Shown piece after piece: positions 49,915 to 58,890 of a stretch of 64,000 nt of DNA; within the stretch, counting starts at the first letter, position 1; every line of letters begins with the position of its first letter. The position numbers and the translations under genes were made by a program. The notes under the pieces are model-generated. The model was not told the DNA's origin. It did not search any database and saw only the letters and a program-made list of their open reading frames with translations. Source of the DNA: an archaeon (lineage in GTDB: Archaea > Thermoproteota > Nitrososphaeria > Nitrososphaerales > CADDZS01); assembly GCA_029850555.1 (NCBI GenBank), contig JARCRS010000031.1, forward strand, positions 62,001 through 126,000, given 5' to 3'.

Positions 49915-50095
49915 AATGTCTTCCAATTTACTGTAGCGTTTTGGGATGAACTTCTCTATTCATAGGCTAGGCGCTCAATAAGTTTCGAATTAGAAATCAG
50001 GAAAATTCTGCCTGAACATTCGATCACGGCCATAATCTTAATCCGTTCCATATACATGATTGAGAACTAGATACACGTGTTATACTATTGATTTT

Positions 50096-50962
50096 ATGTT
50101 AAAGAGAACATTTTTGCTTGCAGTCTTCGCCGTTCTTCTAGTGCTTCCTTTCTCAGGGTTCCTGTTTTTTTCGACTAGTTATTCGGTACCGCTAGGAACT
50201 GCCTCTAGTTTCGCGGTACTTGCTGGATCAACTGTCACCAACACCGGTTCTTCGACAGTTGTTGGGAGCGTCGGCGTATATGCTGGTACCTCCGTGACTG
50301 GCTTTCCCCCAGGAGTAGTGACAGGTGGAACGATACACCAGGCCGATGCTACCGCAAAGCAGGCCCAGAGTGATAACACTGCTGCGTACCTTAGTTTGAA
50401 AGGCCAGTCCTGTCCTGCTACCAATGTCCTCACTGGCAAAGATCTGGGTGGACTAACGCTTACTGCAGGAGTCTATTGTTTTACTTCATCGGCTCAGCTG
50501 ACGGGGACTCTCACTCTCAACGCGCAGGGTGATCCGAATGCGCTTTTTATTTTCCAGATAGCGAGCACACTCACTACCGCGAGCGGCTCTTCCGTTGTAG
50601 TTACAAATGGCGGCAACAAGTGTAACGCGTTTTGGCAAGTGGGCAGCTCCGCGACTCTTGGCACGACTACGGCGTTCGCAGGAAGTATCCTCGCGCTAGC
50701 AAGCATCACATTAAACCATGGTGCAAGCGTGTCAGGAAGAGTCCTAGCACAAACTGGGGCTGTGACAATGGATACCAACCACGTTGACTCCTCAATGTGT
50801 TCGACCGGGACAACATCCACTTCAACAACCACGCCATCTACTACCTCCACATCATCTTCTTCCACAACATCTACTAGCGTGAATACTCAAGTGAGCACAA
50901 CTTGTGTTACCAGCGCAATCTCAAGCGCTAAATTTTCTTCCTCATCATCTTCCACTTCATGA
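50096..50962 (+). CDS. Exported DUF3494 (ice-binding-like) protein
   Basis: Start taken as ATG 50096, giving a signal peptide (LLAVFAVLLVLPFSGFLFF, residues 6-24). The body (about 30-225) matches the DUF3494 family: ASSFAVLAGSTVTNTGSSTVVG, then SVGVYAGTSVTGFPPG, then LTAGVYCFTSSAQLTGTLTL, AFWQVGSSATLGTTTAFAGS and ILALASITLNHGASVSGRVL. DUF3494 proteins form a beta-helix; some bind ice, others are adhesins, so ice binding cannot be claimed. A Ser/Thr-rich linker of about 60 residues ends the protein, probably a glycosylated stalk. Lies within the possible island. Confidence 0.88.
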   Translation: MLKRTFLLAVFAVLLVLPFSGFLFFSTSYSVPLGTASSFAVLAGSTVTNTGSSTVVGSVGVYAGTSVTGFPPGVVTGGTIHQADATAKQAQSDNTAAYLSLKGQSCPATNVLTGKDLGGLTLTAGVYCFTSSAQLTGTLTLNAQGDPNALFIFQIASTLTTASGSSVVVTNGGNKCNAFWQVGSSATLGTTTAFAGSILALASITLNHGASVSGRVLAQTGAVTMDTNHVDSSMCSTGTTSTSTTTPSTTSTSSSSTTSTSVNTQVSTTCVTSAISSAKFSSSSSSTS

Positions 50963-51533: not shown

Positions 51534-52148
51534 TTGCGCAAGAGCATCGTTCGGCGCTATCGGGCCTATTTCGTCTTGATCATGGCAGTCCTCATGGCGG
51601 CTCTTGCGCTGCACTATTCGTACAGTGCGCTCATTAGTACTTCCGATTCCACCGATGTTTCATCTAATTTGTCGCAAATTATTATAGCTGCAAATACTCC
51701 CGTTTCACTGTATAACATTCCTCATTACTGCGGGACCCCGCAGACCTGTGGTGAATATCATTGGCACCTGCACCTAGACATCTTTGTGAACAACACAGCC
51801 TATGTTGTCATACCCTCAAACTTGGGTCATATCAACAACTCAGAGTACAATCTTTACGCGATTCATACACACGATTATTCAGGAATAATACACATAGAAT
51901 GCTGTACGCCTAAAGTAAATCAAACATTCACGCTTGGACAAATATTCGAAATATGGGGCTATCCCATCCTAGATAATCAGGATTGTCTGACCTATCACGG
52001 GGTTCCTGTCTCTGTGTACGTGGACGGACGACAAGTTCAGGGCGACTTTGCAAGTATTCCATTAACCAATCACCTGGAAGTAGTTATTTTGATTGGGAGT
52101 TCGCATCCTACTATTCCTTCAAGCTACACGTTTCCAAATGGGTTCTAG
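51534..52148 (+). CDS. Exported histidine-rich hypothetical protein
   Basis: 204 residues with one N-terminal hydrophobic segment (VLIMAVLMAALALHYSYS, about residues 14-32), a signal peptide or anchor. The body has two histidine/cysteine clusters: HYCGTPQTCGEYHWHLHLDIFVN near 65-88 and AIHTHDYSGIIHIECCTP near 111-128, then FTLGQIFEIWGYP. The His pattern suggests metal binding outside the membrane. I recall similar proteins of unknown function in archaea and bacteria but cannot name a family. TTG start; monocistronic within the possible island. Confidence 0.65.
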   Translation: MRKSIVRRYRAYFVLIMAVLMAALALHYSYSALISTSDSTDVSSNLSQIIIAANTPVSLYNIPHYCGTPQTCGEYHWHLHLDIFVNNTAYVVIPSNLGHINNSEYNLYAIHTHDYSGIIHIECCTPKVNQTFTLGQIFEIWGYPILDNQDCLTYHGVPVSVYVDGRQVQGDFASIPLTNHLEVVILIGSSHPTIPSSYTFPNGF

Positions 52149-53110: not shown

Positions 53111-53854
53111 ATGTATGCGTTGCCAGTGAAAGTTAAAACGAACCGCGGTATCGGCATTGGAATCTTTTCAATGATATTTTTGAGCTTGATGGTTTTGGGA
53201 GCAATCCTTCCCTTTAGCTCCAGCGGTACCGGAAGTACTAACTCAGTGAGTCTATCGGTTCCTGTAAACGAGCAAATCTACGTTACTGCTCCCTATTCGT
53301 CCAATTTTACAATATTGTCAGTCACTGGGCAAGGTTACAGTCTAACGACTGCGCGAGAATTTGATAGCAATATGCTGACCTTTGTACCCCAAAACGCTAC
53401 AAAGTTATCAGTTCTACTGAACGTTTCTGCGCCGGGAGATACGTTCGCCTATGTAACAAGGGAAGCAAGCCCTGTCAATCTTCCTGCATGCAACAATTGT
53501 AATTTTACAGGTCAAGGAAGCGTCCTGGTTCAACTCAATATAAATGCAACAAGCGGGGCCTCACAATCAAATTCGTGGGATCCGCTCTTTGGAATGCTTC
53601 CTGTGAGACTCCAAGGATTTTCTGTAACTTTCGAAGACGTACTTGTAACTATGGCAATCTTCGGCTTTCTGTTCTTAGGGCTTGGAATCGCTTTTCGTTC
53701 AAAAGTTGCTTATCTGGGAATTGCAGTCCTATTCATTGCTTGTACGATCACTCTAGGACTCCTTGTTCTGCTCGGAGTAATTGGGCTATATCTGTTTGGC
53801 TTTGCCCTAATAAACATCGTTTGGAGATATAGGTCGTGGAGAGGAAGAAAGTAG
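53111..53854 (+). CDS. Four-helix membrane protein coupled to AAA+-Lon protease
   Basis: 247 residues. N-terminal transmembrane helix or signal (about 13-36), an extracytoplasmic domain of about 130 residues with N-glycosylation sequons and a CNNCNF pair, then three C-terminal helices (about 178-197, 200-220, 222-240) ending in a basic RYRSWRGRK tail in the cytoplasm. No family recognised. ATG start. Its 3' end overlaps the start of the AAA+-AAA+-Lon gene by 19 bases, so the two should be made in fixed ratio. It is a natural candidate for a membrane anchor or substrate adaptor of that protease (inference). Confidence 0.75.
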   Translation: MYALPVKVKTNRGIGIGIFSMIFLSLMVLGAILPFSSSGTGSTNSVSLSVPVNEQIYVTAPYSSNFTILSVTGQGYSLTTAREFDSNMLTFVPQNATKLSVLLNVSAPGDTFAYVTREASPVNLPACNNCNFTGQGSVLVQLNINATSGASQSNSWDPLFGMLPVRLQGFSVTFEDVLVTMAIFGFLFLGLGIAFRSKVAYLGIAVLFIACTITLGLLVLLGVIGLYLFGFALINIVWRYRSWRGRK

Positions 53855-56613
53855 GAGATAGATTCAAAAAAATGTCAGTGATGCCCTCGGAAGACAAAAA
53901 CGACAAATGGTGGACCAAGTCGAGATTCTTGAGGATTCTCTACCATCCCCTTCTTATCATAAGCGATATCGACTACGCACGATGGGTAGAGTCCAAGAAA
54001 CAGCAGAATCCCTCAAAGCGATTTGTTCAACAGCAGATCAGAGAGGCAGAACAAGGAATCATGCAATTTCGAAATAGCTCTGCAGATTTTGTTGGCTGCA
54101 AGGAGATTTGCGATGAGATTCTTTCCGCGGTTCATTACTGGGTTTTCAAAGATGAAGAATTTAGAGCAGTATGCCCAGCAGCGCCGCCAAAGGTCTTTCT
54201 GATAAAAGGTTCAAGCGGCATGGGTAAGACCACACTTGTTCACAGTGCCATGGTAGAAGCCTTTGACCAAGGCAAGCAAAGAAACATTGCTGTTTACACG
54301 AGTATTGTCTCCCCTCACAAAGTGTATGAAAAATGGTTAGGGGAATCGGAAAAGAGAGTAGCGAGGGCCTTTGATCAAGCTTTTTCGAGACCAACGATCA
54401 TGTTTATCGACGAAGCTCAAGCGTTTACTCATAATCAGGGCGACGGAAAGGCTGGCGACAGCGGAATGCAAGCCTACATGAGCGTCCAGACCACCCTCTT
54501 GGAAAAAGTCAATGAACTTGTTTACCAGGATCATCAATGCATACTGATACTAGCTACAAATGAATTCGGCTCAATGCTTGAAGCAATAAGAAGACGCGGG
54601 AGCTCGGGCACAATTGATCTAGATGCGGAAATTGATCGCAACGTGCTTCTCCAAATTGCAGAGAAGAATCTGGAAAAATACAATCTGAAATATCTCAATG
54701 CAAACGAAGTCCTGAAGACAATAGAGGGAAAGGTAAGGGCATTAGGTCACGGGACTGTGACACCGGCTGATGTGTCTAACGCATTCCAAATTGTCATAGA
54801 GAAAAAGACCAAGAAGCTTCGCTCTTCATATGTGAGAAGGCTATCGCAGGCGCTCGTGAAAGACAAGGCCTCAATTCAAGTTACACTTGACGATTTCCGC
54901 GATATTCGACAGCTAAAGGAGTATACGGAAGAAAAACGCAGCGATGAGATGAGGCATATCGTTCAGCGGATTCGACCCAAGATCACTTTGGATCAGGTTG
55001 GAGGTTTGGAGGGCATCAAAGAACAGTTGCTCAAGGATATCGAAATTTCACTAGATCAGGAGCACGCGAGAAGAGTTGGAGCAACTCCTATTCGAGGTGT
55101 TTTGCTTCACGGCCCTCCTGGCTGTGGCAAGACATGGCTTGCCCAGGGAATCGCGGGCGAGATCGATGCAACGATTTACATGATCCGAGGAGCGCAGATA
55201 ATCAAGCCGTATCACGGGCAAACAGAAAAAATCATCACAGATGTATTTGACGAGGCAAGAAAATACGCTCCTTCGATTATAATAATCGATGAGGTAGATT
55301 CGCTTACCCTAAAACGCGATATGGGTGGTAATCTGGGTGCGGTTACTACTTTGCTCTCAGAGATGGGAGGTTTGAAACCTTTGGAGGGAGTTGTAGTTAT
55401 CGCTACTACAAATAAGCTCCATCTCGTGGATGAAGCATTTTTGAGAGCCGGAAGATTTGACCGGATAATTGAGATTCCTCCTCCAAAGAATGACAGGCAG
55501 AGACAAGAGATACTCGCCGTTCACTTGGAACGTTGTCAATCGTTTCTAGATCCATCAGTCACTTCAGAAAAAGTGCTCGCTCTTTTTGGCAAGAGAACAT
55601 TTACCCCTGCAAAGATAGAACGTCTGGTAAGTGACGCAGTTGAACTTAGAGTCAAGGAATTGAACGCCGTGCACAAGCTCACTTTACTTTCTGAATCAAG
55701 CGATACCGCGAAGAAGGAAAAAGTAATCCGAATTTACGAAGATGACCTAAGACGGCTGAGAACCAATTTGGGATTCTCGATCCAGAATCAGCCTCCGGCT
55801 TCCAAGGAAATTGAAGATTTCAAGAATGTGACTCCCGAGAACTATAGACTTACTCTTTCTCACTTCCAAACGGCTATTCAAAAGTCGAAGGATGAGAAGA
55901 TCGAAGAGATTCAAAAGATCACAAGCTCCCTCAGGGGACCAAACCCTGAGCCAACTATCGGAAAGGTCTACGGTTTGGCTGCATTAAGCGGCGATGGGAT
56001 AGGCCTTGCCTCTGAAGGTACCGTTGCTGTAATAGAATGCGTATGCAACCCGTTCTCAAAAAGGGGAAGATCGCTCGTAATCGGTAGCGAGGTTGCAAAG
56101 TCAGTGAAAGCCAGTGCAGAACACGCAAGAGTATTCTTGAACGAGCAATCGGATTGGGCTATGAGAGATTACGAGTTCTTTCTCGACTTTATCACGTTCG
56201 CAAAGGGTCTAGATAGCCAAGTGATTCAGGGGCCCAGCGCAGGGGCGGCAATCACTCTAGCTGAATTCAGCGTGGGATCAAGAGAAAAGGTTCTGCCAAA
56301 TGTTGTGATTACTGGTGGCGTTACCCCAAAAGGAGAGCTAATCCAAGTCGGAGGGTTGGACTTCAAGGGAATGGGAAAATTTGTTGCGGCTTTAGACACT
56401 GACGGAGTCGATACCATAATAATTCCAGAGTCCAACTACTCGAATCTAGCTGAAGAAGACCGATCTTTCTTTAATCAACAAGGGCTTAAAATTGTACCAG
56501 CTAAAGACTTTTGGGATGTCGCGAGTAATGCTCTTGCTTCTCATCCAACAAAGGACGAGGCGATATCGAGACTAAAGGCGAGCGTTGCAGAATTTCGGAA
56601 GAAGAACGAATGA
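53836..56613 (+). CDS. AAA+-AAA+-Lon protease fusion
   Basis: 925 residues. First AAA+ module: Walker A KGSSGMGKTT near 124-133, Walker B IMFIDEAQAF near 188. Second, CDC48-like module: VGGLEGIKEQL near 393, Walker A HGPPGCGKTW near 425-434, Walker B SIIIIDEVDSL near 481-491, then FLRAGRFDRIIE near 537. A C-terminal Lon-type protease domain follows (about 710-900) with catalytic Ser801 in QGPSAGAA and Lys848 or Lys844 after QVGGL. Archaeal LonB has one AAA+ module and two membrane helices; this protein has two modules and none. Predicted cytoplasmic unfoldase-protease. GTG start overlaps the membrane protein gene. Confidence 0.88.
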   Translation: MERKKVGDRFKKMSVMPSEDKNDKWWTKSRFLRILYHPLLIISDIDYARWVESKKQQNPSKRFVQQQIREAEQGIMQFRNSSADFVGCKEICDEILSAVHYWVFKDEEFRAVCPAAPPKVFLIKGSSGMGKTTLVHSAMVEAFDQGKQRNIAVYTSIVSPHKVYEKWLGESEKRVARAFDQAFSRPTIMFIDEAQAFTHNQGDGKAGDSGMQAYMSVQTTLLEKVNELVYQDHQCILILATNEFGSMLEAIRRRGSSGTIDLDAEIDRNVLLQIAEKNLEKYNLKYLNANEVLKTIEGKVRALGHGTVTPADVSNAFQIVIEKKTKKLRSSYVRRLSQALVKDKASIQVTLDDFRDIRQLKEYTEEKRSDEMRHIVQRIRPKITLDQVGGLEGIKEQLLKDIEISLDQEHARRVGATPIRGVLLHGPPGCGKTWLAQGIAGEIDATIYMIRGAQIIKPYHGQTEKIITDVFDEARKYAPSIIIIDEVDSLTLKRDMGGNLGAVTTLLSEMGGLKPLEGVVVIATTNKLHLVDEAFLRAGRFDRIIEIPPPKNDRQRQEILAVHLERCQSFLDPSVTSEKVLALFGKRTFTPAKIERLVSDAVELRVKELNAVHKLTLLSESSDTAKKEKVIRIYEDDLRRLRTNLGFSIQNQPPASKEIEDFKNVTPENYRLTLSHFQTAIQKSKDEKIEEIQKITSSLRGPNPEPTIGKVYGLAALSGDGIGLASEGTVAVIECVCNPFSKRGRSLVIGSEVAKSVKASAEHARVFLNEQSDWAMRDYEFFLDFITFAKGLDSQVIQGPSAGAAITLAEFSVGSREKVLPNVVITGGVTPKGELIQVGGLDFKGMGKFVAALDTDGVDTIIIPESNYSNLAEEDRSFFNQQGLKIVPAKDFWDVASNALASHPTKDEAISRLKASVAEFRKKNE

Positions 56614-58047: not shown

Positions 58048-58890
58048 ATGTTAGTGTCTCTTCCTAATGAGAATAAGATAGATCTTCGAATCGTCCTCTT
58101 GAGCGATTTGGCCCCTCATGAACAAGTTATCCCTTCTCTCTTGGATTCCGTGCGACGTGATATACAAAGAACTGGTTACCAGAGAGATCCGATAATTATC
58201 GACGAAAGTACAAATTTGGTGCTCGACGGAATGCATAGACGAGCTGCGCTCGAATCCCTGTCCGCTAAATTTGCGCTTTGCGCCTCTTTTAACTACCTTG
58301 ACGATACGATAATTCTGGAAAGGTGGCTCAGGTACTTCATTGCGCCAGATCGACAAATGATTGACGAGCTTCTAGGCCTTTTCGGATTCAAGAAGATCGA
58401 CGACTATCAGACTGCGATAAAAATGGTTGATTCTCATAGGTCCCCGATTGCTCTCTTGTCTAGTCGACAATCCTACTTGAGTACGGAAAAATATGACCTT
58501 CAAACTGTTTACCGCCGACTAGGAGATTTTGATAGAATAGCGACTGAAAGAAACATGAATGTCGAATATCACCCGGAAAATGAGCATGGTAGTTTGTTTC
58601 TTTCCGAATCGGTTTTTGTCCTCTATCCGATGCCGTTAACTAAGGAAGATGTTATCCGAGTGGCTTCGGATCATAAATTGTTGCCTTTCAAGACCACTCG
58701 CCATCTTGTACCTGTCAGGCCTATGGGGATGTATTATCCTCTCGATCTCTTGAAGCGGGACGATTTAGTAGTCTGCAATTCGAAGCTTCGGGAGTTATTA
58801 TCGACAAGTAAGATTGATCTTGTGGAAGCAAACTCATGGTATGAAGGAAGAAGATATTCCGAGGCACTCGCGATATTCAAGAGAAATTAG
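58048..58890 (+). CDS. ParB-like/SerK-family protein (possible L-serine kinase)
   Basis: 280 residues. The N-terminal 80 residues have the ParB/SerK pattern: LSDLAPHEQVIPSLLDSV followed by PIIIDESTNLVLDGMHRRAAL. In Thermococcus, SerK uses this fold to phosphorylate L-serine for cysteine synthesis, with a glutamate at the PHE position; here E36 occupies it. The remaining 200 residues resemble SerK C-terminal regions by length and pattern but a plain ParB-like regulator cannot be excluded. ATG start. Followed 29 bases later by the ubiquitin-fold gene. Confidence 0.68.
   Translation: MLVSLPNENKIDLRIVLLSDLAPHEQVIPSLLDSVRRDIQRTGYQRDPIIIDESTNLVLDGMHRRAALESLSAKFALCASFNYLDDTIILERWLRYFIAPDRQMIDELLGLFGFKKIDDYQTAIKMVDSHRSPIALLSSRQSYLSTEKYDLQTVYRRLGDFDRIATERNMNVEYHPENEHGSLFLSESVFVLYPMPLTKEDVIRVASDHKLLPFKTTRHLVPVRPMGMYYPLDLLKRDDLVVCNSKLRELLSTSKIDLVEANSWYEGRRYSEALAIFKRN

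Follow-up and report, generated by a model that had tools for sequence, protein, structure and literature searches.

The gene pair and its surroundings

The stretch of DNA that we analyzed (the window; 64,000 nucleotides) contains two neighbouring open reading frames on the plus strand, both present as first predicted. The upstream one (53111..53854, +) encodes a membrane protein of 247 residues, as judged from the list of open reading frames, its hydropathy and its glycosylation sequons; Pfam assigned it to no family. The downstream one (53836..56613, +) encodes 925 residues when read from a GTG codon at 53836. With this start the two genes would overlap by 19 bases, as the original prediction had stated, and this part of it probably fails, since it depends on what appears to be a start-codon artefact. 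In relatives from the same taxonomic family, conservation sets in at the position corresponding to M14 (MSVxPS...), which is also where their genes start, a short gap after the membrane protein gene. Because both the homology and the starts of the relatives fall at M14, the ATG at 53875 is likely to be the true start. The gene would then encode 912 residues (53875..56613, +) and be separated from the membrane protein gene by 20 bases, without overlap, the segment 53836..53874 (+) being a probable 5' over-extension. Residue numbers below refer to the 925-residue frame.

Elsewhere in the window, a proteasome had been predicted at 141-884, and this held, the alpha subunit being confirmed. The window also encodes a possibly secreted protein with an ice-binding-like domain (50060-50962; PF11999, 3.4e-63) and two predicted proteins without a Pfam match (51534-52148 and 58048-58890), the former with an N-terminal hydrophobic segment.

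Domain organization of the AAA-AAA-Lon protein

The 925-residue protein comprises two AAA stretches (Pfam PF00004, 3.9e-53) and a C-terminal Lon_C domain (residues 706-901; PF05362, 1.2e-12, 48 bits, and 48-52 bits across searches), well above the curated Pfam cut-off of 21.1 bits for the latter. The proposed architecture of two AAA+ modules, the second CDC48-like, followed by a Lon domain thus held, and the domain search for AAA and Lon_C by which it was to be checked was passed. No other protein of the host genome matched Lon_C.

From the N-terminus, the protein starts with a juxtamembrane W-W/Arg/aromatic segment (residues 24-64; 53905..54027, +), which is conserved in relatives and directly follows the membrane helices in the natural fusion described below. 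AAA domain D1 (about residues 86-345; 54091..54870, +) has a Walker A motif GSSGMGKT (K131), a Walker B motif FIDE (D192, E193), a pore loop KWLG and the sequence RRRG. D2 (about residues 376-645; 54961..55770, +) is CDC48/VAT-like, with a Walker A motif GPPGCGKT (K432), a Walker B motif IIDE (D485, E486) and a pore loop PYHG. The Lon (S16) protease domain covers about residues 700-905 (55933..56550, +). Comparison with PDB sequences matched the ATPase part to VAT/p97, with D2 resembling CDC48/VAT and p97, and the C-terminus to Lon protease domains (E 1.7e-7); profile comparison with hhalign also supported the latter (98.7%). Pfam, PDB-sequence and profile comparison all agree, and the Lon fold is therefore secure by sequence.

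None of the NCBIfam models reached its cut-off. The LonB, Lon and spore-Lon models matched best on the C-terminal domain, the LonB equivalog (TIGR00764) scoring 52.7 bits vs a cut-off of 516.6 and aligning over the protease domain only. The PAN, CDC48 and FtsH models matched the ATPase part: D2 gave about 210 bits to the PAN and CDC48 models, the CDC48 subfamily model (TIGR01243) scored 209 bits vs 803, and the FtsH model (TIGR01241) 175 bits vs 600. Neither AAA module contained a membrane helix, and no 19-residue segment of the whole protein exceeded 1.18 on the Kyte-Doolittle scale. A full-length structure model, built with eight sequences, was poor (pLDDT 61.7), and the domain assembly is therefore inferred from sequence alone; the best Foldseek match of this low-confidence model was a p97-type double AAA protein.

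The proposed Ser-Lys active centre

Ser801 (56236..56238, +), the proposed nucleophile, lies in the motif QGPSAGAA, which includes the GPSAG signature and had been correctly identified in the original prediction. In an alignment of 70 family members, S801, G840, G845, G847 and K848 were invariant, S801 and K848 in 70/70, even though many of these relatives are only 27-45% identical to the window protein over the Lon domain. Ser801 is preceded by Pro, as in LonA-type centres, in the window protein and in all listed relatives, and not by the Asp found at this place in archaeal LonB (PMC9569914).

The catalytic lysine had been proposed to lie 43-47 residues after the serine, and this held in part: Lys848 (+47; 56377..56379, +) is favoured and Lys844 (+43; 56365..56367, +) is not. 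The latter occupies the canonical position, and the residue found there is Arg in 61/70 members and Lys in 9/70. When the family profile was aligned with MtaLonA and MjLonB using hhalign, the catalytic Lys of both fell on K848, with a four-residue loop insertion before it. An earlier phmmer alignment had placed the gap after K844 instead, so that the assignment of K848 rests on the profile alignment and on conservation. We consider it very likely that K848 rather than K844 is the dyad lysine, an inference from sequence alone, as the Ser-Lys geometry has not been measured. The idea that Arg at +43 signals a dead protease was dropped, since the catalytic Lys aligns with K848, which is present in every member.

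Characterized LonA and LonB proteases share a Ser-Lys spacing of exactly 42 intervening residues (PMC9569914). This number would be obtained with K844 in the window protein, while K848 gives 46; in relatives from f4 and f79 the equivalent Lys is shifted by another two residues, with 48 residues in between (hand count). If K848 is the dyad lysine, the dyad loop would exceed that of characterized Lons by 4-6 residues. Such an expanded loop would likely set the active centre apart as a type of its own among Lon proteases, although this is again inferred from the sequences. Of the features of the Lon / S16 fold (clan SJ), the protein thus has the Lon_C score and the conserved Ser-Lys dyad, and with K848 as the dyad lysine it departs from the 42-residue spacing.

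The motor domains and a sister clade with a second protease domain

In f1, the taxonomic family to which the window belongs, both AAA modules retain Walker A, the Walker B Glu, the sensor Asn and the arginines, and an aromatic residue is kept in both pore loops (KWLG and PYHG). The D2 Walker residues K432, T433, D485 and E486 were present in every sequence covering them in the alignment of 70. In the f4 clade, D1 has lost its RRR motif, and its Walker B Glu is replaced by Gln or Asn. The f4 chains end in a BSP metalloprotease domain (PF04450; the C-terminal ~200 residues in L007, L008 and L009) with the motif HEIDH and the EGIAD glutamate; in one further member the BSP domain is a separate frame (L010:794-1441). 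BSP proteins are usually secreted, and a cytosolic one is odd. By their sequence, the f4 proteins would carry two proteases on one unfoldase.

One alternative is that the Lon domain is only a structural or substrate-binding platform and that the protein mainly unfolds membrane proteins or acts as their chaperone, with little or no proteolysis left. In favour of this, most relatives have Arg where the canonical +43 Lys would be, and the f4 sister clade has lost catalytic residues of D1 and has its own metalloprotease domain. Against it, S801 and K848 are retained in all 70 members despite their divergence, K848 being aligned with the catalytic Lys, while a dead domain should have lost the dyad somewhere. 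We therefore regard this alternative as unlikely, and an active Ser-Lys protease as the better reading.

The membrane partner

The upstream gene had been described as encoding a four-helix membrane protein, and hydropathy supports one N-terminal helix (about residues 12-36) and about three C-terminal ones (about 170-240), followed by a short basic cytosolic tail. The middle domain (about 37-168) contains five NxS/T N-glycosylation sequons, which would be consistent with an extracellular position of this region.

A multi-helix membrane protein was found directly upstream of the double-AAA Lon gene in 49 of 51 distinct loci from several archaeal classes, window included (duplicates removed, and only loci with enough upstream DNA counted). 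Multi-helix membrane proteins make up 16% of open reading frames in the background, which gives a binomial P of 3e-36 if phylogeny is ignored. In one clade (Brockarchaeota-type), seven distinct loci have the partner gene next to the protease gene but transcribed divergently from it. The conservation of the two genes as neighbours, which had been put forward as a check, was thus confirmed. Other neighbours (aconitase X, PPDK, acylphosphatase, PhoU and others) were lineage-specific and uninformative.

The window partner matched the partner family of Bathyarchaeia and Brockarchaeota with hhalign probabilities of 82-92%, and these proteins are likely homologous. Partners from f4 and group B are laid out like the window partner but had no detectable sequence similarity to it. 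A structure model of one partner (L090, pLDDT 82) predicts a single helix at the N-terminus, a beta-sandwich and a hairpin of two helices. Foldseek of the partner model against the PDB returned nothing below E 0.001; the best hit (E 0.0023) was among weak cysteine-protease-inhibitor-like and Ig-like matches. The free partner in f41 consists of only ~135 residues of helices, without an extracellular domain.

A natural fusion of partner and ATPase

Further evidence came from one genome, G056 (L069:2-1609), in which the helical module of group B is fused in a single frame to the N-terminus of the ATPase. The fused module was recognized as related to the free partner by blastp (E 1e-14) and hhalign (97.7%). 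The junction reads ...LYDLADEE-VYGFKPWW..., while free partners end in ...WYELIDEEE and free ATPases begin with ...FKPWW. The fusion keeps the helices and the cytosolic side and is devoid of the extracellular domain. The contig is truncated and ends within D2, and the Lon domain is therefore outside the available sequence. With the reservation that there is only one such case, the fusion is strong evidence for a coupling of membrane helices to the ATPase and supports tethering.

A second alternative is that the protease is soluble and that its membrane neighbour is a substrate, or a regulator or sensor of extracytoplasmic stress that controls it. Indeed, most partners include an extracellular domain of considerable size, which the model predicts to be a beta-sandwich, and neighbourhood alone is no proof of binding; moreover, the two Micrarchaeota-labelled copies mentioned below lack a partner. 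Against this, both the G056 fusion and the short f41 partner retain the helices without the extracellular domain, and the anchoring helices therefore look like the conserved core. A soluble protease thus seems improbable to us, and we retain the tethered one.

Distribution of the family and relation to LonB

Full-length relatives were found in f1 (66-71% identity) and in other families (~30-40% identity). The double-AAA Lon was present in 43 of 398 sampled genomes of the phylum (~11%; E <= 1e-110), within Nitrososphaerales, Bathyarchaeia and Brockarchaeota, and in 9 of 400 sampled genomes of the class (E <= 1e-70). When 84,980 species of bacteria and archaea were scanned with a signature drawn from only part of the family, 36 loci were returned. 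All were archaeal, from Nitrososphaerales, Bathyarchaeota, Brockarchaeota and other TACK archaea, with two unexpected Micrarchaeota-labelled copies. In a quick tree, f1, f4 and group B each formed one clade; long branches left the deeper order unsure. The double-AAA Lon with its membrane partner is thus a family conserved across many uncultured Thermoproteota and not unique to the host genome. The original prediction would have been refuted if the pair had been widespread and already characterized; it is widespread, but no earlier description was found. Neither the double-AAA Lon nor an archaeal CDC48-Lon fusion was described in the open-licence literature that we searched, which is weak evidence, as subscription papers and preprints were outside its scope.

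The two Micrarchaeota-labelled copies (L076 and L077; JAKAPJ01, isolate YF1.bin64) are divergent and come from one metagenome-assembled genome. Neither has a membrane neighbour, and one has lost the Walker B Glu of D1 (DS). Horizontal transfer and a mislabelled bin are both possible. A second, partial copy in G006 (L031 / G006:C26; 482 residues at a contig end, ~70% identical) has Arg at the 844 position.

According to reviews, the membrane Lon of archaea is LonB, with a single AAA module (PMC4864567, PMC4343526, PMC9569914). Searching the 398 genomes of the phylum for LonB-like proteins (TIGR00764, E <= 1e-100) gave 27 positive genomes from five families. No genome of the 398 had both proteins, and none of the five LonB families carries the double-AAA Lon (hypergeometric P 0.04, not corrected for phylogeny). 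It is possible that the double-AAA Lon replaces LonB; the distribution fits this, but does not prove it.

The mutual absence is also what would be expected from a third alternative, that the protein is an ortholog of LonB restricted to certain lineages, with an added AAA module and with its membrane segment moved to a separate gene. Against this, D2 is CDC48/VAT-like and the LonB model aligns over the protease domain only; furthermore, Pro rather than Asp precedes the Ser, and no membrane helix lies within the AAA modules. Such an origin is therefore doubtful, and we favour a design separate from LonB.

Discussion

The data make it likely that the gene pair encodes an ATP-dependent Ser-Lys protease anchored to the membrane, which would add a third design to those of LonB and FtsH. 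The domain composition, the invariance of S801 and K848, the ATPase motifs and aromatic pore loops of D1 and D2 in this clade, the conserved neighbourhood and the single fusion are established, while the hexamer, the activity, the anchoring in this species and the substrates are inferred. The proposal of an energy-dependent protease that combines the LonB and CDC48 designs and is tethered by a membrane partner is thus supported by sequence evidence, without any experiment; a role in membrane or surface protein quality control remains an inference.

In the mechanism that we propose, the large protein would be cytosolic and presumably hexameric, with two AAA+ rings stacked on a ring of Lon Ser-Lys protease domains. 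Its N-terminal aromatic/basic segment would be kept against the cytosolic side of the membrane by the small membrane protein, which would in many lineages carry a beta-sandwich domain outside the cell as well. D1 and D2 would pull the substrates through to Ser801-Lys848 for cleavage; the substrates are probably proteins of the membrane or associated with it, either misfolded or subject to regulation.

Archaeal LonB (S16.005) is likewise a membrane-associated ATP-dependent Ser-Lys protease with a C-terminal Lon domain, and the window protein may well share its cellular role. LonB has one AAA+ module with a membrane segment between Walker A and B (PMC9569914), whereas the window protein has two AAA modules, lacks this segment and has a separate partner. 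LonA (S16.001) and Firmicute LonBA share the A-type GPSAG centre, and LonBA is also predicted to be membrane-bound; however, they have one AAA+ module and the exact 42-residue spacing, and their N-terminal parts are a coiled-coil region in LonA and a membrane helix in LonBA (PMC9569914). CDC48/VAT/p97 share the tandem AAA modules and the type of D2, but are without a protease domain, and D1 of the window protein is divergent. FtsH and the m-AAA and i-AAA proteases follow an analogous logic as membrane-held AAA+ proteases. They differ by their single AAA module, zinc metalloprotease domain and membrane helices in the same chain. Bacterial FtsH-type proteases also have separate membrane partners.

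A bolder reading, towards which we lean only slightly, is that the protein belongs to a third class of membrane AAA+ proteases that was assembled independently and consists of a VAT-like double-ring unfoldase, a Lon domain with an expanded loop (46-48 vs 42 residues) and a dedicated membrane anchor. This class would replace LonB in much of the Thermoproteota, one lineage having added a BSP-type metalloprotease. The existence of free and fused forms of the anchor makes the tethering hypothesis directly testable. If the proposal is correct, the 42-residue rule for the Ser-Lys spacing of Lon active centres would be broken, and membrane surveillance in many Thermoproteota that lack LonB would be explained by a double-ring Lon whose anchor is separable.
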